Of a stretch of DNA of 64,000 bases, positions 48,314-63,533 are shown piece after piece. The stretch lies in the NCBI GenBank assembly GCA_902826815.1, contig CADEGF010000026.1:25738-89737 (forward strand), given 5' to 3'. The notes under the pieces were generated by a model. The model saw nothing but the letters and a program-made list of their open reading frames with translations. It made no database searches and was not told where the DNA came from. The stretch is from an uncultured Mycobacteriaceae bacterium (GTDB lineage Bacteria > Actinomycetota > Actinomycetes > Mycobacteriales > Mycobacteriaceae). Within the stretch, counting starts at the first letter, position 1; each line of letters begins with the position of its first letter. A program made the position numbers and the translations under genes.

Positions 48314-48609
48314 GAATTCGTCTCGACCGGACGATGTGTGACGGCTTCGGCCAGTGCGCCAAGCACGCACCGGAGTACTTCTCGCTCGACGACTGGGGAT
48401 ATGCATCGCTGGAGGGCAATGGCGCCATCCCCGAGCAGGACCGGGCCGCGGTGACGCGGGCACTGCTGGACTGCCCCGTACACGCCATCATCGAGATGGG
48501 CACCCATCAACCGTCACGCGACGGGGCTGCACATCCGGATGCGCGGGAAGTGCCAGAACCCGACCCGAAGACAGATGACAGCGAAGCGATATCGGAGTTC
48601 GTCCGGTGA
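48310..48609 (+). CDS. Ferredoxin with long C-terminal tail
   Basis: A 99-residue ferredoxin. The cluster domain covers residues 1-64 (Cys10, Cys16 and a later Cys in LDCPVHAI); a ~35-residue polar tail (SRDGAAHPDAREVPEPDPKT) follows and is absent from the other ferredoxins in this window. The tail may dock to the NuoF-like protein. Both ends overlap neighbours by 4 bp, placing it between the flavoprotein and the DUF35-thiolase fusion. Confidence 0.9.
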   Translation: MRIRLDRTMCDGFGQCAKHAPEYFSLDDWGYASLEGNGAIPEQDRAAVTRALLDCPVHAIIEMGTHQPSRDGAAHPDAREVPEPDPKTDDSEAISEFVR

Positions 48610-50261
48610 CAAGACCACTGCCGGAAGTCAACGCGCAGAACGAATTCTTCTGGACCGCGGGCGCCGACGGCGTGCTGCGGATCCAGGAGTGCACGGACTG
48701 CGACGCGCTGATCCATCCGCCCACCCCGGTTTGCCGGTATTGCCGTAGTCGCAATATGGGTGTGCGCGACGTATCGGGCGAGGCCACCCTGTCGGCCTTC
48801 ACGGTCAACCATCGCTTCGGCTTTCCCGACCTCCCCCCGCCGTATGTCATCGCACAGGTAGCGATCGTCGAGGATCCGCGAGTCCGGTTGACCACCAACA
48901 TCGTTGACTGCGAGCCCGACGATCTCGAGCTGGGTCAGACCGTGGCCGTTCAGTTCGACAAAGCCGAGGACAAGGTCGGTACCGTCTGGCTTCCGGTGTT
49001 CACCCCGACCGCCGAGAAGAAGACCGGGCCGCAGGCAGTCGACGAGATCGCCCCGCAGGACTTCGGCAAGCACGTCTCGCCGATGCTCACGGAGAAAAAG
49101 TTCGAGGACGCGGCGGCGATCACCGGGATCGGCATGTCGACGATCGGCAGGCGACAGATGGTGGCGCCGCTGTCCCTGACGATCGACGCCTGCCAACAGG
49201 CCGTTGCCGACGCGGGTTTGACGTTCGACGACATCGACGGGCTCTCAACGTATCCGGGCCTCGACATCGCGGGGATGGGCGAGGGCGGCGTCACCGCGTT
49301 GGAAGGTGCATTGGGTCTGCGCCCCGTGTGGATCAACGGCGGAATGGACACCTTCGGTCCCGGCGGTTCGCTGATCGCCGCGGTGATGGCCGTCGCGACG
49401 GGGATGGCCCGGCACGTGCTGTGCTTCCGCACGCTGTGGGAGGCGACCTTCCAACAGTTGACGAAGGAAGGCAAGATGTCGCCGCCGGGAGGTGCCCGCA
49501 CCTCGAGCTGGCAGATGCCTTTCGGCGCGACGTCGGCGGCGCACACGCTCGCGATGAATGCGCAGCGCCACTTCGACCGGTACGGCACCACGAAGGAGAC
49601 GCTCGGCTGGATCGCGTTGAACCAGAGGGCCAATGCGGCGCTGAACCCGACCGCGATCTACCGCGATCCGATGACCATGGACGACTACCTGAACGCAAGG
49701 CCGATCACCACCCCGTTCGGGCTTTACGACTGCGACGTGCCGTGCGACGGCGCGATCGCGGTGGTCGTATCGGCCGTCGATGCCGCAAAGGACATGCCGC
49801 AAAAGCCCGTGCTGTTCGAGGCGGTCGGCACTCAGATCGTCGAGCGAACCGACTGGGATCAGACCACGCTGACGCACGAGCCGCAGGTGCTTGGCCAGTC
49901 CGCTCACATGTGGACGCGGACGTCGTTGCGGCCCAAGGATGTCGACGTCGCCGAGCTGTACGACGGTTTCACGTTCAACTGTCTTTCGTGGCTGGAGGGT
50001 CTCGGCTTCTGCGGGATCGGCGAGGCAAGGGACTTCATCGACGGGGGTAAGGCCATCGCGCGCGACGGCGTCATTCCGCTGAACACCCACGGCGGCCAAC
50101 TGTCGCACGGTCGGACGCACGGCATGGGCCTGATCCACGAAGCCGTCGTGCAGCTGCGCGGCGACGCGGGCGAGCGCCAGGTCAAAGACGCCCGCGTCGG
50201 CGTCGTCAGCAGCGGTGGGCTGACACCCAGCGGGGCGATTCTTCTGCGGACCGAGGGTTGA
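48606..50261 (+). CDS. DUF35-thiolase-like fusion protein, candidate Ltp2-type aldolase
   Basis: A 551-residue fusion. Residues 1-135 are a DUF35 domain: zinc ribbon Cys29, Cys32, Cys43, Cys46 followed by an OB-fold. Residues 160-551 are a thiolase-like domain, but the nucleophile position (GGMDTFGPGGSL) has no cysteine, the usual catalytic His is in the context ELYDGFTF (Tyr452), and GHP is replaced by SHGRTHG (His501, His505). This is the pattern of Ltp2-type retro-aldolases, which normally need a separate DUF35 partner in steroid side-chain degradation. Here partner and aldolase are one chain. Aldolase activity is inference. Confidence 0.85.
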   Translation: MTRPLPEVNAQNEFFWTAGADGVLRIQECTDCDALIHPPTPVCRYCRSRNMGVRDVSGEATLSAFTVNHRFGFPDLPPPYVIAQVAIVEDPRVRLTTNIVDCEPDDLELGQTVAVQFDKAEDKVGTVWLPVFTPTAEKKTGPQAVDEIAPQDFGKHVSPMLTEKKFEDAAAITGIGMSTIGRRQMVAPLSLTIDACQQAVADAGLTFDDIDGLSTYPGLDIAGMGEGGVTALEGALGLRPVWINGGMDTFGPGGSLIAAVMAVATGMARHVLCFRTLWEATFQQLTKEGKMSPPGGARTSSWQMPFGATSAAHTLAMNAQRHFDRYGTTKETLGWIALNQRANAALNPTAIYRDPMTMDDYLNARPITTPFGLYDCDVPCDGAIAVVVSAVDAAKDMPQKPVLFEAVGTQIVERTDWDQTTLTHEPQVLGQSAHMWTRTSLRPKDVDVAELYDGFTFNCLSWLEGLGFCGIGEARDFIDGGKAIARDGVIPLNTHGGQLSHGRTHGMGLIHEAVVQLRGDAGERQVKDARVGVVSSGGLTPSGAILLRTEG

Positions 50262-51130
50262 GCATCGCTCCTCGCCCACGCGTCGTCCTTGTGGACGGCG
50301 TGCCGATGTCGGCGTTGGTGGCGGCGGTAGAAGACCCGAAGGCCGTGATCGTCGCGGTCCACGGCGGCGCCACCTCGGCGGCGTACTTCGACTGCCCGGG
50401 CCACCCGGAGCTCTCGCTGTTGCGTGCGGCCGCCGCCGCCGGATACACGGCTATCGCACTCGACCGGCCCGGCTACGGCGCGTCGGCGTTCTACCACGAC
50501 GACATGACCGACGCGGACAGGCGGGTCGGCTTCGCGCTCGGCGCCGTGGACAAGATCATCGGCGAGAGTTCCCGCGGCGCAGGACGTTTCCTGCTTGCGC
50601 ACTCGGCAGGCTGTGAGATCGGGCTGCGGATCGCGGTCGACGAACGGGCGGCCGACATCTTGGGTGTCGAACTGTCCGGGACCGGGTTGCGATACGGCGA
50701 CCAGGCGAAGGCCGTCATCAGCAAGGCCACCGTGACGTCGCGCCCGGCGGGTCTACGGGATCTGCTGTGGCAGCCGACCGAGCTCTATCCGCAGGAGGTG
50801 TTGACCGGCGGCCTGTCGGCGCCGGGCGCACCCTATGAAGCCGACGTGACGGCCAACTGGCCGCGCCGCGACTTTGCGGATGTCGCGGGCCGGGTCACGG
50901 TGCCGGTCGAGTTCAGCGTCGCCGACCACGAACGCGTCTGGGAGTCGACACGGGAGGCGGCCGACGCCGTCGCCGCGCTGTTCACCTCGTCGCCGCGGGT
51001 CGTGGTCAACGAAATGCCGGACAGCGGACACAATCTCAGCGTCGGCTGGAGCGCGGGCGAGTATCACCGCCGGGTGTTGGCGTTCGTCGACGAATGCGCG
51101 GCCGCGCGCAAAGAGCGGGAGGCGGGATGA
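50258..51130 (+). CDS. Alpha/beta hydrolase
   Basis: A 290-residue alpha/beta-hydrolase: VHGGATSAAYFD (oxyanion), ALDRPGYGASAF, nucleophile loop LLAHSAGCEIG, and the late histidine in PDSGHNLSVGW. TTG at 50258 overlaps the upstream stop (TTGA), and its own stop overlaps the next ATG. It is probably an esterase, thioesterase or C-C hydrolase of the same pathway; it is not closely similar to the hydrolase at 45606. Confidence 0.9.
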   Translation: MSIAPRPRVVLVDGVPMSALVAAVEDPKAVIVAVHGGATSAAYFDCPGHPELSLLRAAAAAGYTAIALDRPGYGASAFYHDDMTDADRRVGFALGAVDKIIGESSRGAGRFLLAHSAGCEIGLRIAVDERAADILGVELSGTGLRYGDQAKAVISKATVTSRPAGLRDLLWQPTELYPQEVLTGGLSAPGAPYEADVTANWPRRDFADVAGRVTVPVEFSVADHERVWESTREAADAVAALFTSSPRVVVNEMPDSGHNLSVGWSAGEYHRRVLAFVDECAAARKEREAG

Positions 51131-51948
51131 TGCGCGTCGGCTTCATCGGGCTGGGCAGCCAAGGCGCCCCGATGGCCCGGCGGATCGCCGAGGGCGGGTA
51201 TGACCTGACGCTGTGGGCGCGCAGACCCGCCAGCCTCGAACCGTTCGCCGACACCTCCGCGAAGACCGCGCAGTCCCCCGCCGAGTTGGCGGCTGTCAGC
51301 GATCTGGTCTGCATCTGTGTCGTCGGCGACGATGACGTCAGGGAAGTACTTGGCGGCGAAAGCGGCGTGCTGGCCGGACTGGCGGCGGGCGGGATCGTGG
51401 CGATCCACAGCACCGTGCACCCCGACACATGTCGACAGTTGGCGCAAACCGCTGCCGATCAAGGCGTTTCGGTCATCGACGCTCCAGTGAGTGGTGGCGG
51501 TCCCGCCGCCGAGGACGGCACGTTGCTCGTCATGGTCGGCGGCGACGACGAGATCGCCGAGCGCTGCCGCCCGGTCTTCGCCACCTACGCCGATCCGATC
51601 GTGCATCTCGGGCCGGTCGGCAGCGGCCAGGTCACCAAGATCCTCAACAACGTGCTGTTCACCGCCAACCTGGGTAGCGCGATCAACACCCTGGAACTCG
51701 GCGAATCCCTCGGCATCGACCGCGAACAATTGGGCGCGGTGCTCAACAACGGCTCAGCCACGAGCAAGGCTCTCGGCAGCATCTCCGCGTTCGGCGGCAC
51801 ACTCGACCGGCTCGCGCCGATCGCCGGTGCACTGCTGCAGAAAGACGTCAGGCACGCCGCCAGCCTTACCGACGCCGCACAGGCACCGCAGGGAGCGGTA
51901 TTCGATGCGGCGGACGCGGCGCTGAACGCGATGGAACACCCGCGATGA
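51127..51948 (+). CDS. 3-Hydroxyisobutyrate dehydrogenase-like NAD(P)-dependent oxidoreductase
   Basis: A 273-residue beta-hydroxyacid dehydrogenase: nucleotide site GFIGLGSQGAPM (5-16), substrate loop DAPVSGGGPAAEDG (about 118-131) and catalytic Lys171 in GSGQVTKILNN. It should oxidise a 3-hydroxy acid or reduce a semialdehyde. ATG 51127 or 51130 may be used, both near GGGAGGCGGG. It is followed by a paralogue with a 4-bp overlap. Confidence 0.93.
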   Translation: MMRVGFIGLGSQGAPMARRIAEGGYDLTLWARRPASLEPFADTSAKTAQSPAELAAVSDLVCICVVGDDDVREVLGGESGVLAGLAAGGIVAIHSTVHPDTCRQLAQTAADQGVSVIDAPVSGGGPAAEDGTLLVMVGGDDEIAERCRPVFATYADPIVHLGPVGSGQVTKILNNVLFTANLGSAINTLELGESLGIDREQLGAVLNNGSATSKALGSISAFGGTLDRLAPIAGALLQKDVRHAASLTDAAQAPQGAVFDAADAALNAMEHPR

Positions 51949-52745
51949 CCCGTGTCGGCTTCGTCGGCGCCGGGCGGATGGGCGCACCGATGGTGCGGCG
52001 GCTCGTCGAGGCGGGCCACGAAGTAAGCGCGCTCGGCCGCACACCCGAAAAGTGCGGCGCGGTGCAGGATTTGGGTGCACGCGCCGTCACCAATCTGCCA
52101 GCAGTCGCCGAGGGGGCCGAGGTCGTCGTTGTCTGTGTGTTCACCGACGAACAGGTGCGGCAGGCCTGTCTTGACGACGGCCTGGTCGCCGCCATACCGA
52201 CCGATGCCGTGCTTGTCCTGCACACCACCGGAAGCCCGCGCACGGCCGAGACGATCGCCGCCCGCGGGGTCCAGGTGATCGACGCGCCGGTCAGCGGAGG
52301 TCCGCACGACATCGCCGCCGGTCGGGTGACACTGTTCGTCGGTGGCGACGACGACGCGGTGGCGCGCACGCGGCCGCTTCTGGGCGCCTACGGTGACCCG
52401 GTCCTGCACGTCGGCGGTATGGGCGCAGGCCAACTGGTGAAGCTGGTCAACAACGCACTCTTCGCGGCGCAGATCGGAGTTGTCACCGAGGGCGTGCGAC
52501 TCGGCGGCCTGCTCGGTGTCTCCGAGCCCGCGCTGCTCGAGGCACTGACGCACGGCAGCGCGGACAGCCGTGCGCTGGGCAATATCGCGAGGGCGGGCTC
52601 CGCGGCGGCCTTCGTCGACGCCGTCGGCGGCTTCATCGGCAAGGACGTCGCGGTGGTCCGGCGGGCGCTCGCGGAACTGGGCGGGGATCTCGGCGCGCTG
52701 GACGGTGTCGTCGAAGCAGGCCTGACAATGAGACACATCCCTTGA
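51945..52745 (+). CDS. 3-Hydroxyisobutyrate dehydrogenase-like oxidoreductase (tandem paralogue)
   Basis: A 266-residue paralogue of the previous enzyme: GFVGAGRMGAPM, DAPVSGGPHDIAAG and Lys166 in GAGQLVKLVNN. The two are clearly distinct in the C-terminal half, so they may take different substrates or form a heteromer. The stop codon lies in the loop of the terminator-like hairpin at 52727-52762. Confidence 0.93.
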   Translation: MTRVGFVGAGRMGAPMVRRLVEAGHEVSALGRTPEKCGAVQDLGARAVTNLPAVAEGAEVVVVCVFTDEQVRQACLDDGLVAAIPTDAVLVLHTTGSPRTAETIAARGVQVIDAPVSGGPHDIAAGRVTLFVGGDDDAVARTRPLLGAYGDPVLHVGGMGAGQLVKLVNNALFAAQIGVVTEGVRLGGLLGVSEPALLEALTHGSADSRALGNIARAGSAAAFVDAVGGFIGKDVAVVRRALAELGGDLGALDGVVEAGLTMRHIP

Positions 52746-54266: not shown

Positions 54267-54630
54267 ATGCGATTCGTCTTCTTGCACGGCGGATTTCATG
54301 CCGCCTGGTGTTGGGACCACACGATCACCGAACTGCGGCAACTGGGCCATGACGGCGTCGCCGTCGACCTACCGGGCCACGGCGCGCTGGTCGACCAGGA
54401 GTCGACGCTTGCCAACCGGCGGGACGCGATCGTCGCCGCCATCGCGCCGGGCGACGTCCTCGTCGGGCACTCCGGTGGCGGGTTCGACGCCACACTCGCC
54501 GCCGACGCCGTCCCCGAGCACGTCAGCCACATCACCTACCTCGCCGCCGCGCTGCCACGGGAAGGACGCACCTATCCCCAGGCCATGGCGATGCGCGACG
54601 AAGCCGACAGCCCCGCTGGTCCCTCACTAA
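54267..54630 (+). pseudogene. Truncated alpha/beta hydrolase (first ~120 codons)
   Basis: ATG at 54267 starts a good alpha/beta-hydrolase N-terminus: FVFLHGGFHAAWCW (oxyanion), AVDLPGHG, and the nucleophile loop LVGHSGGGFDATLAA. After about residue 121 (DEADSPAGPS) the homology stops at a palindromic element (54634-54697), and the convergent DUF1330 gene begins at once. The cap and the Asp/His of the triad are missing, so the enzyme must be inactive. An open frame continues to 54959 but only as antisense to the next gene. Confidence 0.75.
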
Positions 54631-54633
54631 TTT

Positions 54634-54697
54634 CCCGTGAGCAGACGCTAAAACCCCCAATTCGCACTAATTTTGGGGGCTTTCACGTCTGCTCGCC
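54634..54697. repeat. Palindromic element that truncates the hydrolase gene
   Basis: Outer arms GAGCAGACG (54639-54647) and CGTCTGCTC (54686-54694) are perfect; inner arms AAACCCCCAA (54651-54660) and TTTTGGGGG (54671-54679) continue the stem around TTCGCACTAA. I have the impression of having met near-identical sequence between genes in other mycobacteria. It could end transcription from both sides. Its junction coincides with loss of hydrolase homology. Confidence 0.7.
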
Positions 54698-54705
54698 GGA
54701 GAAAA

Positions 54706-54993
54706 TCAGCCCAGGCCGGTCAGGATGGCGCCGTTGCAGTCGGCGGCCTTCTGCCGAAGCTTGGCGGCCTCCTGATAGGCGTCGGAGTTGTACCACTCGC
54801 GGGCGGCGTCGGGCGACTCGAACTCGAGGAGAACGGTCTGGGTCCCGTGCCACTCCCCCTCGATCTGCTCGGCGCTCGGGTCGAACGCGAGGATCGTCGC
54901 GCCCGCCATCGCCTTGCTGGCGAGCTTGGCGTACTCCCCCATCCCGGCGGGATCCTTGACGTCCTCGGTGATGACTACATAGCCCTTGGGCAC
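54706..54993 (-). CDS. DUF1330 family protein
   Basis: A 95-residue dimeric alpha/beta-barrel-type protein (MPKGYVVITEDVKDPAGMGEY..., TVLLEFESPDAAREWYNSDAYQEA), the standard length and motif of DUF1330. Function is unknown for the family; members occur beside catabolic oxygenases. It lies 16 nt downstream of a ferredoxin gene on the same strand and probably ends that transcript. Confidence 0.93.
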   Translation of the reverse strand: MPKGYVVITEDVKDPAGMGEYAKLASKAMAGATILAFDPSAEQIEGEWHGTQTVLLEFESPDAAREWYNSDAYQEAAKLRQKAADCNGAILTGLG

Positions 54994-56621: not shown

Positions 56622-57467
56622 CTACCGGATCGGTTCGTCACCCAGCACGGTGGTTCGCAGCATTTCCCGAGGTGAGCTGGGGTCGTAAGCGGCCGCCCGA
56701 TGCAGGACGCCGCGGTTGTCCCATATGACGGTGTCCCCGACCGACCACGTGTGGCTGTACACCTTGTCTGCAACGGTGGCGCGGTCGAGCAGGTCCGCAA
56801 GCAGTGCGACGCCCTCATCGCGATCCATCCCGACGACGTAGTCGGCCGACGCGCCGAGAACCAGCGACCTGCGACCGCTGCGGTGCGTCCACACCAGCGG
56901 ATGCGTGTGGGTCCGCCGTGATCGCCACTTGGCGAGAACCTCCGGTGACGGGTTCGGCGTGACCCGGCGCTGGGAGGCCTCCAAGGAGTGCACGACGCGC
57001 ATCGACGCGAACCGCTGCTTCTCCGCGTCGGTCAATGCGTCGTATGCCGCGTAGGAGCTCGCGAACTCGGTCTCACCGCCGGAATCGGCGACCTGTTTGG
57101 CCGACAGCACCGTGGCCATCTGCGGGAACGTGTCCTCGATCGGGGTGCAGCCGTCGATGTGCCAGTCGAAGGTCGCGCGCAGATAGTCCGCCGAGGCGTT
57201 CTTCGCCTTGTCCAGCGTGACGGGATAGATGCCGGCCACGGGATGGTGACCGTCGGCGGAGTGGTCGATGTCGCCGAGCCTGCGGCAGAACTCCACCTGC
57301 GCTTCCGGTTTCAGGCCGAGCCCTGGAAAGACCAGTACGCCGTTGTCCTCGAGCGCCTCGAGCACTGCAGCGCCGAGCGCGTCGTCGCCTGCGAGCCTGT
57401 CGGAGTCGACACCGAGCACCTCGGCGCCGACCGAATCGGTGAGCTTGTTGATCGTCAACACACTCAT
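56622..57467 (-). CDS. TauD/TfdA family 2-oxoglutarate-dependent dioxygenase
   Basis: A 281-residue non-haem iron dioxygenase. The iron triad is His103/Asp105 (FDWHIDGC) and His256 (NRGVLHRAA), and Arg267 (SPREMLR) binds 2-oxoglutarate. It would hydroxylate an unactivated carbon, coupled to succinate formation. Its ATG overlaps the stop of the small helical protein (ATGA), and it is the last gene of the ferredoxin-SDR-Rieske-small protein-dioxygenase operon. Confidence 0.95.
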   Translation of the reverse strand: MSVLTINKLTDSVGAEVLGVDSDRLAGDDALGAAVLEALEDNGVLVFPGLGLKPEAQVEFCRRLGDIDHSADGHHPVAGIYPVTLDKAKNASADYLRATFDWHIDGCTPIEDTFPQMATVLSAKQVADSGGETEFASSYAAYDALTDAEKQRFASMRVVHSLEASQRRVTPNPSPEVLAKWRSRRTHTHPLVWTHRSGRRSLVLGASADYVVGMDRDEGVALLADLLDRATVADKVYSHTWSVGDTVIWDNRGVLHRAAAYDPSSPREMLRTTVLGDEPIR

Positions 57468-57805
57468 GGCACGGGCGCTCCTATTCGGTCGATCACGGCG
57501 TCAGCGGAATCGGTTGGCTTCTGCTGGCCGAACACCTCGATGGCCATCGAGACCATGATCATCGAGTAGATGAGGTGCAGAAGGTTGAGCGCGTCGTCGG
57601 GGATGCCATCGAGCGGGAACTTGTCGCAATAGTCGATCGCCTCCTCGAAACGGGGAGTGAACGTGTCGTAGAAATCCCGGAGCTCGGGCATCGGAGTGGA
57701 TAGCCGGGCCTGCCAACGCTCGGGTTCGGTCGGCAGACACCACTTTTCGGCGAACCGCTCGAGTTCGGCGAAGGCACTAGGAAGGCGTTTGTCGGACATG
57801 GTCAC
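57464..57805 (-). CDS. Small helical protein encoded with a Rieske oxygenase (copy 1)
   Basis: A 113-residue protein of unknown function. Conserved blocks shared with the copy at 61924: WCLPTE (22-27), FYD-x3-TPR-x-EEAI-x-YCDKFPLD (45-66), LNL-x-HL-x-YSMIMVS (74-86). The C-terminal part looks like an amphipathic or hydrophobic helix. It is translationally coupled at both ends (4-bp overlaps with the Rieske gene and the dioxygenase). The same arrangement occurs at the second Rieske gene, so a partner or small-subunit role is inferred. No known family recognised. Confidence 0.85.
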   Translation of the reverse strand: MTMSDKRLPSAFAELERFAEKWCLPTEPERWQARLSTPMPELRDFYDTFTPRFEEAIDYCDKFPLDGIPDDALNLLHLIYSMIMVSMAIEVFGQQKPTDSADAVIDRIGAPVP

Positions 57806-59061
57806 ACCTGCACCGGGATGCGCTCGCGCTTGTAGTCCTGGACCCAGTCGACAGCCACCTTGTGCAGGTGGCGCACCAGGATCTCCTGGTCGTTGAGTGG
57901 GTAGTCGTCGACGATGCCGTACTCCAGCGCCGCCTGCGTGCCGCCCAGCATGCCTGCGTCCTGCAGTGCGAACTCCTTGAGCACCACCGAGGCGACCTCA
58001 TGTTCGATGCGCTCGCGGACACTGCTTGCGGGATGGAATGCGTTGTACGCCTCGAACTTATGGGTGTTGTGCGATGTCGGCCAGTACCGGTACAGCAGGT
58101 ACCACCCGTGGTAGATGAGGATCTCGAGGTTCGGGAAGATCTGAAAGTTGGTGATACCCCACGGTTCGATCCCGCCCGGGTTGAGGCCCGCTGACTGGTG
58201 TGTCTCCGGCGTCCGCCAAGGTCCTACCAGCCCGCTGCGGGTGACCCGTTCAACCGGATACATGAACTCGGGATCGAGCAGCCATCGTCGGGTGCCGGCC
58301 GTCGACACCAAGCGATGCGGTCCGTCGATCTGAAAGTGCCCGCACTCGAAGGTGGCATTCGGTTGACGCACAGCCGTCGGCACCTGCTGGCTGTGCAGCG
58401 ACGGTACGTGGTAGTACTCCTGGAACGCGTCGGCGAAGATCTTCCAGTTGCTGTTGTTGTGAGCGACGAAATCGTAACGCTCGGTCATCAATTCGAAGGG
58501 ATAGTCGTCGAGCGCGGTGATCATCGGCCCGAGGAACTCGCGCAGGCTCTGCCGAGGATCCGGATCGAGGTTGATGAAGATGAAGCCGTTCCAGATGTCG
58601 CAGTTGACCGGCCGCAGTCCGTATTGCGACGTATCGAGGTCGAAGAACTCGCCGGGTTGCTGGACAAAGGTCAATGCGCCTTCGAGGTCATAGCGCCAGC
58701 CGTGGTACTTGCAGGTGAACTGCCTGCAGGCGCCTGCCACCTCCCCATTGGGAAAGTCATTCCACACCAGCTTGTTTCCGCGATGGCGGCAGACGTTGTA
58801 GAAGGCACGGATCTTCTGGTCCTTGCCCTTGACGACGATCACCGACGTCTTGGCGGCGTCGATCTCCTTGGTGAAATAGCTTCCTACGCGCGGAAGTTCC
58901 TCCACCCGGCCGACGTTCAGCCAGGCGCGTTTGAAGATGGCCTCGCGCTCGAGTTCGTAGAACTCCGGCGACGTCGAGTCTGAAAACGAGACGGGGCCAG
59001 TGCCCAGCTCCGGGTAATGCTCGGTCCAGCTGCCTTCCGCGGGCTTCGGCCACTTAGCCAT
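57802..59061 (-). CDS. Rieske non-haem iron oxygenase, alpha subunit (copy 1)
   Basis: A 419-residue ring-hydroxylating oxygenase alpha subunit. Rieske ligands: Cys91/His93 (CRHRGNKLVW) and Cys117/His120 (CKYHGWRYD). Catalytic iron is bound by Asp211, His218 and His223 in DAFQEYYHVPSLH, with a late acidic residue presumably completing the triad. No beta-subunit gene is present; instead the small helical protein overlaps its stop. Close paralogue at 62268 with the same ligand numbering. It probably hydroxylates or demethylates a polycyclic or aromatic acid. Confidence 0.95.
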   Translation of the reverse strand: MAKWPKPAEGSWTEHYPELGTGPVSFSDSTSPEFYELEREAIFKRAWLNVGRVEELPRVGSYFTKEIDAAKTSVIVVKGKDQKIRAFYNVCRHRGNKLVWNDFPNGEVAGACRQFTCKYHGWRYDLEGALTFVQQPGEFFDLDTSQYGLRPVNCDIWNGFIFINLDPDPRQSLREFLGPMITALDDYPFELMTERYDFVAHNNSNWKIFADAFQEYYHVPSLHSQQVPTAVRQPNATFECGHFQIDGPHRLVSTAGTRRWLLDPEFMYPVERVTRSGLVGPWRTPETHQSAGLNPGGIEPWGITNFQIFPNLEILIYHGWYLLYRYWPTSHNTHKFEAYNAFHPASSVRERIEHEVASVVLKEFALQDAGMLGGTQAALEYGIVDDYPLNDQEILVRHLHKVAVDWVQDYKRERIPVQV

Positions 59062-59106
59062 CCGGATCCCCTTTTGTGCTCCTCACGTGCGCGCCTCCCT
59101 GACGAT

Positions 59107-59865
59107 TCACAGCACCTGCCCTCCGTTGACGCCCAGGACCTGCCCGGTGATGAAACCGGCCTGCTCTGAGCACAGGAATCCGACGGCCGCGGCGATGTCC
59201 TCGCCGGTACCGAGGTGCCCGACCGGAATGCTCGCGGCCATCTGCTCATTCGACGGCAGGTGGCCCGCAGCCTGTCCCTGATGCTGCATCGGTGTCTCGA
59301 TACCCGAGGGCGGGACGTTGTTGACGGTGATGCCCAACGGACCATATTCGCGGGCAAGCGATTTCGTCAGGGACAGCAGCGCGCCCTTGCTGGCCGCATA
59401 GTGCGCCATCTTCGGCGAGCCACGTTGCGCACTCGACGACGAGATCATCACGATGCGACCCCAGCCCGCATCCAGCATGTCGGGCACCGCGACCTGACAG
59501 CAGTGGAAGGTTCCGGTCAGGTTCACCGCGATCAGGCGTTCCCATGCCTCGAGGGTGATCTCCGCGAACGGCGCGAAGTCCACCAGTCCTGCACTGGTGA
59601 CCAAGACGTGCACGGGGCCGAGCTCGGTACGAATCTTGGCGAACGCCTCCTCGACGGCTCCGCGGTCGCTGACGTCAGCGGTGACCGCCAGTGCCGTCAC
59701 ACCCTCGGCCCCCAGGTTTTCACAAACCCTCTGTGCGGCTTGGGCGTCGAGGTCGAGGACGGCGACCTTGTGCCCGCGCCGTCCCAGCTCGTGGCAGATC
59801 GCTTCACCCATACCCGACGCTCCGCCGGTCACCACCGCCACTCGGCTTGTGTCTTCAGAAGTCAT
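59107..59865 (-). CDS. Short-chain dehydrogenase/reductase
   Basis: A 252-residue classical SDR with GGASGMG, SAGLVD, the serine loop MISSSSAQRGSP and YAASK. The overall pattern is close to the SDR at 6806 (both have SSSAQ, PPxGI/FIDTPM-like region and VNGG at the end). It overlaps the ferredoxin stop by 11 bp and precedes the Rieske gene by 45 nt, so it may oxidise the Rieske product. Confidence 0.93.
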   Translation of the reverse strand: MTSEDTSRVAVVTGGASGMGEAICHELGRRGHKVAVLDLDAQAAQRVCENLGAEGVTALAVTADVSDRGAVEEAFAKIRTELGPVHVLVTSAGLVDFAPFAEITLEAWERLIAVNLTGTFHCCQVAVPDMLDAGWGRIVMISSSSAQRGSPKMAHYAASKGALLSLTKSLAREYGPLGITVNNVPPSGIETPMQHQGQAAGHLPSNEQMAASIPVGHLGTGEDIAAAVGFLCSEQAGFITGQVLGVNGGQVL

Positions 59866-60169
59866 AGGTCACCCGCACGATCTGACTGGTCGGCAGCGCC
59901 TGGCAGGTCAGCACGTATCCCTCCGCGACCTCGTCGTCGGAGAGCGCGTCGTTGTTCACCATCCGTGCGCTGCCCCCGAGCACCAGCCCCATACACGTTC
60001 CGCACGAGCCGGTCTCACACGAATACGGGGCCTGCAGCGCCTGCGAGCGCGCCACCTGAAGCAATGTTTCGCCCGCGCGGTACTTCGCCGTCGTGGTCTT
60101 TCCGTCGAGCTCGATGACGACCTCTTCGGTCGCGGCGACGGCAACGTCGGCCCTGGTTTGTTCACTCAT
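59855..60169 (-). CDS. Plant-type [2Fe-2S] ferredoxin
   Basis: A 104-residue ferredoxin with ligands Cys51, Cys56, Cys59 (CETGSCGTC) and Cys89, as in the ferredoxin domain of KshB-like reductases, but without the FAD/NAD reductase domains. It probably receives electrons from a reductase encoded elsewhere and feeds the Rieske oxygenases. ATG at 60169 (MSEQTRADVA) is chosen; an in-frame start 18 nt upstream would run into the operator. It leads the operon running to 56622. Confidence 0.9.
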   Translation of the reverse strand: MSEQTRADVAVAATEEVVIELDGKTTTAKYRAGETLLQVARSQALQAPYSCETGSCGTCMGLVLGGSARMVNNDALSDDEVAEGYVLTCQALPTSQIVRVTYDF

Positions 60170-60184
60170 CGACAACAACATTAT

Positions 60185-60214
60185 CAAGTACTTGTCATTC
60201 CTATCAACTACTTG
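60185..60214. promoter_or_regulatory. Two CAAGTACTTG-type operator sites
   Basis: CAAGTACTTG (60185-60194, perfect palindrome) and CAACTACTTG (60205-60214) are 20 bp apart, centre to centre, just upstream of the ferredoxin operon and touching the MarR stop. The exact reverse complement of the second site recurs at 63594, before the other Rieske operon. The sequence also resembles the published KstR2 motif (CAAG-N2-CTTG core). Confidence 0.7.
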
Positions 60215-60670
60215 TTACTCAGGTCCGATGTGGTCGGTGTGCAACTGGTGGCCCGTGCCCTGCTCGATCACGCGTCCGAGCAGCTCGCGCAGGGTTTCCT
60301 GCTCCTCGCTGCTGAGCACGTCGAACACTTTGGCGTGCGCGGCGATGGCGTCGCTGACGACGGCTTCGGCGACCTTACGGCCCTGGTCGGTCAGGAACGC
60401 CTGCAATATCCGGCCGTGCGCAGGGTTCTGTTTGCGCTCCACCAGCCCGCGTCGCTCGAGCTCCTTGAGGGCCAGCTGAACACCCTGCGGGCTGATCAGC
60501 AGCCGGCGCGCCAGATCGGCGCCGGACAAACCGGGCTCGGTGGCCAGTTGGCGGAGCATGCCGATCTGTGCGGTGCTGACGCCGTGTTCACTCACCGCAT
60601 CGTTCACCGTCGTCAACGAGAAGTACCACGCCTGCTTGAGCAGCCAGAGGATGTTGTCGGTCTGTTCCAC
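60215..60670 (-). CDS. MarR family transcriptional regulator
   Basis: A 151-residue winged-helix regulator: LSGADLARRLLISPQGVQLALKELE (recognition helix) and wing RKQNPAHGRILQAFLTD. GTG start at 60670, 15 nt after the amidohydrolase-like gene, so it is the last gene of the second Rieske operon. CAAGTACTTG-type sites lie directly downstream of its stop, before the first Rieske operon, and at 63594 before its own operon: the expected positions for its control of both. Confidence 0.92.
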   Translation of the reverse strand: MEQTDNILWLLKQAWYFSLTTVNDAVSEHGVSTAQIGMLRQLATEPGLSGADLARRLLISPQGVQLALKELERRGLVERKQNPAHGRILQAFLTDQGRKVAEAVVSDAIAAHAKVFDVLSSEEQETLRELLGRVIEQGTGHQLHTDHIGPE

Positions 60671-60685
60671 GTCGCCTCCTTCCCT

Positions 60686-61927
60686 CTACCGCTTGTAGAC
60701 CACGCCGTTTTTCATGACGAATCGCACGTCGAGTGTGGTCGCGATATCGCGCGATGGATCCCCAGGCACGGCGATGATGTCGGCGAGGTATCCGGGCGCG
60801 AGCCGGCCAAGCTCGTCGTCGGCATCGATCAGCTCGGCGCTGGTGATCGTTGCGGCCCGCAGCGCCTGCATCGGCGTCATACCCCTGTCAACCAAGGCGC
60901 GAAGCTCTTTTGCGTTCTGTCCGTGGGGAATTGCGGGTGCGTCGGTCCCGCAGGCGATTCGGACTCCGGCGGTGATCGCCTTCGGCAACATCGCCTGCGC
61001 ACGTGGGAAGACCTCCTCGGCCTTCTTGCGCAGTTCCGGTGCGATGCGGTCGATCGCCATCGCTTCGGTGAGGTAGGTCGTCGAGACGAGGAAGGTGTCG
61101 TGGTCGACCATCATCTGGATGGTCTCGTCGGTGGCGAGGAAGCCGTGCTCGATGCAGTCGATACCGGCCCTGATGCACGCCCGGATCGCACTGTCCCCCA
61201 CCGCATGCGCCGCGACCCGGACCCCGGCGCGGTGGGCCTCGTCGGCTATCGCGGCGAACTCGTCGTCGGAGTACTGCTGCGCGCCGGGTGCGGTGCTGTG
61301 CGACATCACGCCGCCCGAAGCGGATACCTTGATCAGCTTGGCGCCGTGACGAACCTGGTAGCGCACACACGCGCGAACTTCGTCGACGCCGTTGGCGATG
61401 CCCTCGGCGACCGACAGCGGCATGATGCCCGGTGCGAGACGTTGAAACACCGTCGGGTCGAGGTGTCCGCCGTACGGTGTGACGGCGTGGCCGGCGGGAT
61501 AGATGCGCGGCCCGACGTGCCAGCCTTCGTCGATGGCGCGCTGCAACGCGACGTCGAGGAGATAACCGCCGGTCTTGACCATCAGGCCGAGGTTGCGCAC
61601 GGTGGTGAAGCCGGCCTCCAACGTGCTGCGGGCGTTCACCGCGCCGCGCAGCGTGCGGTAGGCGGGATCGTCCTGCACGCCGTGCATCGGGTTCGGCAGA
61701 CCTTCCGGGCCGCCCGGTCCACCGATGAGCAGGTTGAGTTCCATGTCCATCAGGCCCGGCAGCAGTGTGACGTCGCCGAGATCGATCTCGGCCGAATCAC
61801 GCGGTATCTCAGCCGGATTGACCGACTGGATCCGATCGCCGTCGACGACCACCACCGCAGGCGAGTGGACCTCACCCGCCTCGACGTCGGCCCAGCGCGC
61901 GGCACGAAGGACGGTCGTAGAGGTCAT
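60686..61927 (-). CDS. Amidohydrolase-superfamily protein (imidazolonepropionase-like) lacking the HxH metal pair
   Basis: A 413-residue protein with the amidohydrolase 1 layout: N-terminal beta-sandwich, LLPGLMDMELNLLIGG where D-x-H-x-H is expected, LIKVSASGGVMS (lysine position), VAAHAVGDSAI, CIEHGFLAT and GTDAPAIPHG. The two N-terminal metal histidines are replaced by Glu and Asn, while the later His/His/Asp remain, so any metal site must be incomplete or different. ATG at 61927 overlaps the small-protein stop. Role unknown: prolidase-like or lactone/imide hydrolase. Confidence 0.85.
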   Translation of the reverse strand: MTSTTVLRAARWADVEAGEVHSPAVVVVDGDRIQSVNPAEIPRDSAEIDLGDVTLLPGLMDMELNLLIGGPGGPEGLPNPMHGVQDDPAYRTLRGAVNARSTLEAGFTTVRNLGLMVKTGGYLLDVALQRAIDEGWHVGPRIYPAGHAVTPYGGHLDPTVFQRLAPGIMPLSVAEGIANGVDEVRACVRYQVRHGAKLIKVSASGGVMSHSTAPGAQQYSDDEFAAIADEAHRAGVRVAAHAVGDSAIRACIRAGIDCIEHGFLATDETIQMMVDHDTFLVSTTYLTEAMAIDRIAPELRKKAEEVFPRAQAMLPKAITAGVRIACGTDAPAIPHGQNAKELRALVDRGMTPMQALRAATITSAELIDADDELGRLAPGYLADIIAVPGDPSRDIATTLDVRFVMKNGVVYKR

Positions 61928-62262
61928 GGCACGGGTTCGGACAGACAATCCAGCGCCGCCGCACCGGAATCCGGCACGCGCGGCTGCTTCCAGCACTCCA
62001 CCGGGAACGACACCATGATCATCGAGTACAGCAGGTGCATCAGGTTCAGCACGTCTTCGGGGAGATCATCGAGCGGGAACTTGTCGCAGTAGGAGATGGC
62101 CTCCTCCGCCCGAGGCGTGATGGCGTCGTAGAACGCCTGCATACCGGTCATCGACGTGGTCAGCCGCTTGGCGTACCTCTCCGCCTCGGTCGGCAGGCAC
62201 CACTCGGTGAACGGTTCCAGATCGGCGAATTCAGCTGGCAGCATGGAAGATTCGGTGGTCAC
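61924..62262 (-). CDS. Small helical protein encoded with a Rieske oxygenase (copy 2)
   Basis: A 112-residue homologue of the protein at 57464, colinear by eye with a one-residue shift: EWCLPTEAER (20-29), FYDAITPRAEEAISYCDKF (44-62), LNLMHLLYSMIMVSFPVE (72-89). GTG at 62262 is chosen (5 nt after the Rieske stop); ATG at 62244 is the alternative. It has extra cysteines (EC near 90, DC near 106). Its coupling to the second Rieske gene mirrors the first cassette, so the two genes were probably duplicated together. Confidence 0.83.
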   Translation of the reverse strand: MTTESSMLPAEFADLEPFTEWCLPTEAERYAKRLTTSMTGMQAFYDAITPRAEEAISYCDKFPLDDLPEDVLNLMHLLYSMIMVSFPVECWKQPRVPDSGAAALDCLSEPVP

Positions 62263-62267
62263 GGCAC

Positions 62268-63533
62268 CTACACCCCCGCGGTCTTGCGCTGGTAGTCCTC
62301 GACCCACGCGGCGGTCTCCTGGTGCAGATGACGGATCAGCACCTCCTGGTCGCAGAGCAGGAACCGGTCGACGACTTGCGATTCGACCATCGTCTGCGTC
62401 GCCTCAAGAGTGTTCGCGTCCTGCAGCCCGTACTCCTTGAACGACACGGCCGCCAGTTCCTGCGCGATCCGTTCCCTCGGTGTGCGCGGCGCCGGGAAGT
62501 AGAGGGTGCCTTCGAAGATGTGCGTGTTATGCGAGGTCGGCCAGTAGTGGTAGGTCAGGTACCAGCCCTGGCCCCAGACCAGGATCACGAAGTTCGGGAA
62601 CAGCTGGAACGAATCAAGGCCCCACGGATCGCATTTCGCCGGATTGAGACCCGCCGGCATCTCGCCCAGATCGGCTGCGTCCCATGGTCCGAACAATCCG
62701 CTCTGGCAGATGTCCTCGATGGGCTTGCGCATCTCGGCGTCCATCTCCCACGCGCGAATACCCGATGTGCTGACCAACCGGTGCGGTCCGTCGATTCGGT
62801 AGTGCGGTGCCTCGAAGCCTGCCTCGGCCGCAGCCTTGGAGTACTTCGCGGGCGACTGGTTCGCGTGCAACACGGGTGCGTGATAGAACTCCTGGAACGC
62901 ATCCATGTAGAGCTTCCAGTTCGCCTTGACCTCCGAGCGGTAATAGAAGCGCGACGTCATCTGCCCGAACGGATAACCCTCAAGGCCGGTGATCATCGGA
63001 CCGAGGAAGTCGCGCAGGCTCTGTTCGGGTTCCGGCGCGAAGTTGACGAAGATGAAGCCTTCCCACACCTCGCAGTGCACCGGGACCAGGCCGTAGCGGC
63101 TCTTGTCCAGATCGAAGAATTCGCCCTCCTGCTGGACGAACGTGAGGTTGCCGTCCAGGTCGTAGCGCCAGGCGTGGTACTTGCAGGTGAACTGCTTGCA
63201 GAAGCCGCTGGTCTCCTCGAGCGGCATATCGTTCCACACCAGCTTGTTGCCGCGATGCCTGCAGATGTTGTGGAACGCGTTGACCTCACCGGCGTTGTTG
63301 CGCACCAGGATGATCGACGTGTTGACGACCTTCAGTTCTTTGGTGAAGTAGCTGCCCTTGCGCGGGAGTTGTTCGACGCGACCGACATTCAGCCACGCCC
63401 GCTTGAACACCGCCTTGCGTTCGGCCTCGTAGAATTCGGGGCTGATCGAGTCCTCGTAGGAAACCGGCTCGCTTCCCAGGCCCGGATAGTGCTCGGTCCA
63501 ACTGCCTTCGGCCGGCTTCGGGAAACGCGCCAT
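62268..63533 (-). CDS. Rieske non-haem iron oxygenase, alpha subunit (copy 2)
   Basis: A 421-residue paralogue of the enzyme at 57802, with the same ligand positions: Cys91/His93, Cys117/His120 and Asp211/His218/His223. The Rieske loop reads KYHAWRYD (alanine for the common glycine), and the substrate-pocket half diverges more. It should act on a related substrate or a different position. It leads the Rieske-small protein-amidohydrolase-MarR operon, with a CAAGTAGTTG site 61 bp upstream. Confidence 0.95.
   Translation of the reverse strand: MARFPKPAEGSWTEHYPGLGSEPVSYEDSISPEFYEAERKAVFKRAWLNVGRVEQLPRKGSYFTKELKVVNTSIILVRNNAGEVNAFHNICRHRGNKLVWNDMPLEETSGFCKQFTCKYHAWRYDLDGNLTFVQQEGEFFDLDKSRYGLVPVHCEVWEGFIFVNFAPEPEQSLRDFLGPMITGLEGYPFGQMTSRFYYRSEVKANWKLYMDAFQEFYHAPVLHANQSPAKYSKAAAEAGFEAPHYRIDGPHRLVSTSGIRAWEMDAEMRKPIEDICQSGLFGPWDAADLGEMPAGLNPAKCDPWGLDSFQLFPNFVILVWGQGWYLTYHYWPTSHNTHIFEGTLYFPAPRTPRERIAQELAAVSFKEYGLQDANTLEATQTMVESQVVDRFLLCDQEVLIRHLHQETAAWVEDYQRKTAGV

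Follow-up and report, generated by a model that had tools for sequence, protein, structure and literature searches.

Rieske oxygenases put oxygen onto stubborn organic molecules. Their alpha subunit houses the mononuclear iron as well as the Rieske cluster, and they are classed by subunit make-up as alpha3 or alpha3beta3. We analyzed a 64,000-nucleotide stretch of DNA from an uncultured Mycobacteriaceae bacterium (contig CADEGF010000026.1, positions 25,738 to 89,737; hereafter the window) in which two Rieske alpha subunits, RO1 and RO2, are each accompanied by a small protein, SP1 and SP2 (Table 1). The locus thus poses the question of what SP is to the oxygenase: a subunit, a helper in its assembly, a regulator, or simply a neighbor.

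Table 1. Genes of the oxygenase cluster, in window coordinates.
Gene	Coordinates	Strand	Remarks
TauD-family Fe/2OG oxygenase	56622..57467	(-)	PF02668; adjoins RO1-SP1 in many relatives
SP1	57464..57799	(-)	111 aa, partner of RO1; ATG start 57799, GTG at 57805 possible
RO1	57802..59061	(-)	Rieske oxygenase alpha subunit, 419 aa; PF00355 + PF00848
SDR oxidoreductase, upstream of RO1	59107..59865	(-)	PF13561
[2Fe-2S] ferredoxin	59855..60187	(-)	PF00111
MarR-family regulator	60215..60670	(-)	PF12802
Amidohydrolase	60686..61927	(-)	PF01979; ATG start chosen, overlaps SP2 stop
SP2	61924..62262	(-)	112 aa, partner of RO2; GTG start
RO2	62268..63533	(-)	Rieske oxygenase alpha subunit, 421 aa; PF00355 + PF00848

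The initial annotation had described two paralogous alphas, each directly followed by a homologous small protein, and the genes bear this out. RO1 and RO2 are 58% identical; SP1 and SP2 are likewise 58% identical (over 106 columns) and have the blocks WCLPTE, YCDKFPLD and YSMIMVS in common. SP2 starts 5 nt after RO2, and the alternative GTG start of SP1 at 57805 would overlap the RO1 stop. Both SP stops overlap the downstream start through an ATGA (TauD at 57467 and the amidohydrolase at ~61927). The minus-strand order is RO2, SP2, amidohydrolase, MarR, [2Fe-2S] ferredoxin, SDR, RO1, SP1, TauD, and the ferredoxin is the likely electron donor. Mycobacterial loci repeat the gene set RO-SP-MarR-ferredoxin-SDR-RO-SP-TauD; the amidohydrolase is visible in some of them, and the overlap filter used could mask it elsewhere. 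The nocardial arrangement is SDR-RO-SP-TauD-RO-SP, with a ferredoxin ahead in some loci. The surroundings of the RO-SP genes resemble degradation clusters in mycobacteria, nocardiae and sphingomonads alike.

Several other genes of the window, all on the plus strand, are recorded here as separate observations. At 48606-50261, a ChsH2-type zinc ribbon and OB domain are fused with a thiolase C-terminal domain in a single protein, and two neighboring 3-hydroxyisobutyrate-dehydrogenase-like genes at 51094-52745 overlap slightly. The alpha/beta hydrolase frame at 54267-54959 has a Pfam match limited to residues 3-136 and looks truncated, because its remainder runs over a DUF1330 gene on the opposite strand (54706-54993).

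RO1 and RO2 are complete alphas, with PF00355 and PF00848 both over the Pfam cut-off. In an alignment of eight alphas, residues C91, H93, C117, H120, D211, H218, H223 and D368 of RO1 are invariant, and the cluster and iron ligands are kept in both proteins; we take the Rieske Cys/His ligands and the iron-site motif NWKxxxDxxxExYHxxxLH with its downstream Asp to be hallmarks of Rieske alphas. The conventional beta subunit has an alpha+beta (NTF2-like) fold. That none is encoded here had been proposed for the window and extends to the whole genome: it contains 27 Rieske matches, and PF00866 (Ring_hydroxyl_B) gave no match over the cut-off genome-wide and one weak partial match below it. Eleven SnoaL_4 matches were found in the same genome, of which one (C15:79659-80003) sits ~1.2 kb past the SP gene of that contig and none of the others lies beside an RO-SP cassette.

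SP resembled no protein family that we searched. No significant match was obtained in Pfam (59 members), NCBIfam (two), PHROGs (two) or the PDB sequences, and the weak library matches of single SPs (for example Pfam E 0.014 to 0.23, PHROGs 0.039, PDB E 1) were taken as chance. An AlphaFold (AF2) model of SP1 built with 59 sequences (pLDDT 91.9) has four helices, at residues 8-20, 25-34, 37-58 and 68-90, and no strands; Foldseek and VIA searches of PDB folds found no significant match and no useful relative. From residue 91 on, the block-mean pLDDT falls through 81 and 73 to 65, and this low-confidence tail contains Q92, D97 and P109, which are invariant or nearly so among the 59 sequences. Across 39 diverse SPs, P7, W20, R28, R32 and L73 are invariant and L6, F10, E14, F43, L76 and E88 nearly so. 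These columns include no Cys or His, so SP has no conserved Fe-S ligands. Because it lacks conserved Cys/His and no recognized cofactor motif was found, SP presumably acts by binding. A classical beta subunit was considered and rejected, as PF00866 is absent among the Pfam families matched at E<=1 by the 59 SPs, the model is all-helical, and the genome lacks PF00866 over the cut-off. The suggestion of a membrane adaptor found nothing in its favor, SP being predicted to be a compact four-helix protein.

The pairing proved wider than first described, with five cassettes in the genome rather than two. A genome search with SP1 identified five SP genes, all five directly 3' of their own RO alpha; the cassette ROs are 39-100% identical to RO1, and the SPs of the paralogous cassettes are 38-58% identical to SP1. 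To learn whether SP homologs are mostly unlinked to Rieske genes elsewhere, we scanned a collection of species genomes, and in the best 80 of 158 relatives' loci every SP gene (129/129) adjoins an RO gene on the same strand. A wider tally that includes repeats of the own genome gave 163/163. Among 127 assigned spacings, for which the start choices are our own, 78 SP genes overlap the RO stop, 48 begin 0-10 nt after it and one lies farther away. None of six candidate RO-SP fusions proved to be a fused gene when translated. Conservation and linkage together rule out chance or artefact as the source of the pairing.

The converse was examined in a two-way search of apparently the same 396 actinobacterial genomes, scoring up to four RO and up to 11 SP candidates in each genome. 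The 70 RO matches listed fall into two groups. All 34 that score at least 597 bits have an SP directly 3'. The 36 that score at most 203 bits span only part of the alpha and were therefore recounted in a wide window; none of these, among the matches listed, has an SP within 5 kb. A sensitive SP search of 17 fetched loci of low-scoring ROs found none, and three weak SP matches (L102-L104, E ~4e-4 to 7e-4) were discarded because they disappeared with a broader profile. In the other direction, the SP search listed 36 matches in 13 genomes, of which 34 adjoin the high-scoring ROs; the remaining two adjoin an RO according to the locus survey above.

Within the genus, SP is present in 116 of 148 genomes and RO (E<=1e-80) in the identical 116. 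The matches listed total 335 SP and 337 RO, with equal counts in 110 of the 116 genomes, and we followed up the six genomes with unequal counts. In G421, G446 and G488 partial matches at contig ends suggest that the contigs are broken there (for G446 this is inferred). G413 contains an extra, more divergent RO-SP pair. In G514 (L217, G514:C47) the start of the RO frame runs directly into SP, which looks like a deletion scar. G504 (L235, G504:C1) is the one true exception to the pairing: its RO (654.9 bits) belongs to the SP clade and is intact, yet the ~1.5 kb flanks contain no SP. A different open frame, 99 codons from stop to stop, comes after this RO. The exceptions that we opened are thus mostly broken cassettes, plus one intact alpha without SP.

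Proteobacteria were sampled via plasmids only. A tblastn search of plasmids with four SP queries returned 24 records, 21 of which could be judged from regions or match coordinates; the remaining three have the same SP match as the lindane plasmids described below. SP adjoins an RO in 16 of the 21, one from Rhodococcus and the others proteobacterial. In four records (CP080769, CP101526, CP017076 and CP039697) SP lies ahead of the RO at least once, and at the loci with reversed gene order L124, L192 and L194 it still adjoins the RO; the RO of CP043640 is split in two. Of the five records in which SP lacks an adjoining RO, four are lindane plasmids; in the fifth, Cupriavidus necator C39, a cupin-like frame is next to SP. 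On the lindane plasmids (L118, L189, L190 and L191), linC and an EthD gene precede SP, which ends at IS6100. On MI1205 and a TKS plasmid a copy of IS6100 is directly adjoined by a truncated RO of the SP clade, which shares 43.6% identity with the SP-linked RO of pJE1. We therefore infer that the lindane-plasmid SPs probably come from cassettes broken by IS6100. Four ROs 28-31% identical to RO1 were also opened, and SP was present in one (L129) and absent from three (L127, L128 and L130).

Seven of the proteobacterial loci that were annotated have an intact cassette, and in five of these (L120, L123, L125, L126 and L192) an NTF2/SnoaL-like gene lies near RO-SP. Because of these genes, SP is not simply a replacement for beta everywhere, and the proteobacterial loci concerned may encode three-part enzymes.

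The alphas that carry SP also form a group of their own. A midpoint-rooted tree was built from 40 representative SP-bearing ROs, left after thinning of 157 pairs, and from 18 of 20 SP-less ROs, the other two being over-long frames. All 40 fall into one clade with support 0.918, apart from the other actinobacterial ROs sampled. RO1 and RO2 belong to separate subfamilies of 56 and 54 members. Nocardia and Actinomadura members occur in each, indicating that the RO1/RO2 duplication is old, and the separate subfamilies rule out a recent one. SP accompanies all 19 RO subfamilies sampled, whereas TauD, SDR, ferredoxin, MarR and amidohydrolase differ between loci. When the 19 subfamilies were compared with SP clusters, the adjusted Rand index was 0.9998 at an SP cut-off of 1.2, the best of four, and 0.63, 0.73 and 0.15 at the other three. 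The RO and SP distance matrices of 157 pairs correlate at 0.92 (shuffle maximum 0.23), and the true pairing beats the swapped one in all 44 two-cassette loci. Linkage, near one-to-one counts, a single alpha clade and matching subfamilies strongly support the earlier proposal of a dedicated partner kept through duplication.

After a control with SDR and TauD, we no longer took the mirror tree within subfamilies to prove that SP and alpha bind. Among 52 RO1-type orthologs the RO-SP distance correlation (0.76) is lower than that of RO-SDR (0.85) or RO-TauD (0.83), and given SDR and TauD the partial RO-SP correlation is 0.30. Because it is no higher than that of these neighbors, the within-subfamily correlation reflects shared ancestry. 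The cassettes were duplicated and moved as units, and co-variation singles out no physical contact.

CntA carnitine monooxygenase, GbcA and stachydrine demethylase are homotrimers without a beta subunit and are among the closest alphas to those of the window by PDB sequence (6y9c, E 1.4e-26), by NCBIfam (the GbcA model, though far under its cut-off) and by fold (6y9d and 4quq). Like them, the window ROs are ~420 aa long, and their genome lacks PF00866 over the cut-off. However, the window alpha is ~18% identical to the CntA type over the fold alignment, and we know of no SP-like partner for any of the three. In HcaEF and the naphthalene and biphenyl dioxygenases, which are alpha3beta3, the alpha has the same domain order (PF00355 + PF00848) and a small gene directly follows it. 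SP is unlike their beta in being all-helical in the model, with PF00866 not matched by any of 59 members. In the PdmAB phenylurea N-demethylase of Sphingobium, the Rieske alpha is paired with a small protein, PdmB. In the titles and abstract openings of the open-access literature, which takes in few subscription journals, we found no description of SP. Its place beside this one branch in many bacteria suggests that SP-bearing Rieske oxygenases have an undescribed subunit.

A single chain of an RO2-type alpha and its SP, made by reading through the one stop between them, was modeled with AF2 (pLDDT 86.6, pTM 0.75, both global scores only). The last three blocks, which are the SP tail, have pLDDT 90, 83 and 71, slightly better than in SP1 alone, a comparison between different paralogs. 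The model thus gives evidence neither for docking of SP on the alpha nor against it. The closest solved folds are again CntA and stachydrine demethylase, with beta-containing ROs close behind.

On balance, we think it somewhat probable that one monophyletic branch of Rieske oxygenases has SP as its own accessory subunit, present in stoichiometric amount. In this view the four helices and the conserved C-terminal tail of SP would rest on the alpha trimer and would either hold the oligomer together or shape access of substrate or ferredoxin. What the data show are the linkage, the clade, the matching subfamilies and the predicted fold; from these we propose that SP binds, that it does so stoichiometrically and on a trimer, and that it may affect activity. 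The main rival is a dedicated assembly or maturation factor that would bind the new alpha for cluster or iron insertion or trimer assembly and be absent from the finished enzyme. The same linkage and clade evidence fits such a factor, as do the absence of conserved Cys/His from SP and its position directly after the alpha, which it overlaps or follows at no more than 10 nt in 126 of 127 cases. However, a single cell has five paralogous ROs, and each has kept a diverged SP of its own where one could serve all; this is an argument and not a test, but it makes a specific subunit likelier than a shared factor, and we consider a maturation role possible though rather unlikely.

The other two alternatives appear weaker. 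SP could be an effector or coupling protein, reversibly bound to the finished oxygenase and gating oxygen activation or ferredoxin docking. The effector (MMOB/DmpM) and assembly (DmpK) proteins of the multicomponent (diiron) monooxygenases are likewise small, cofactor-less and present once per oxygenase operon, and SP, with its single copy per oxygenase, lack of conserved Cys/His and conserved low-confidence tail, might be cast in a similar role. Yet those proteins serve a different oxygenase class and showed no sequence match to SP, and neither MMOB/DmpM nor any other effector family was matched in Pfam at E<=1 (59 members, HMMER only). We consider an effector by this analogy improbable. It is more improbable still that SP has an enzymatic or binding function of its own in the same pathway and stays next to the RO by operon selection only. 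The other neighbor genes are conserved too, and among orthologs their correlation with RO is as good as that of SP; but SP stays with all 19 RO subfamilies while those neighbors vary, and it has no conserved catalytic Cys/His.

An accessory subunit thus remains our preferred reading, and an uncatalogued partner of this kind, if true, would add an architecture beyond alpha3 and alpha3beta3. A bolder version, which we hold as doubtful, is that a clade of actinobacterial and proteobacterial Rieske oxygenases has a new architecture of alpha plus small helical partner, with SP gating or tuning catalysis either from a bound position or in the manner of an effector; to our knowledge, this would have no counterpart in Rieske enzymes. 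What look like remnants of RO-SP cassettes are found next to linC on lindane-degradation plasmids. An SP partner could explain failures of such alphas expressed alone, and the pairing offers a rule by which this branch can be spotted from sequence and its alphas co-expressed with the adjoining small gene.
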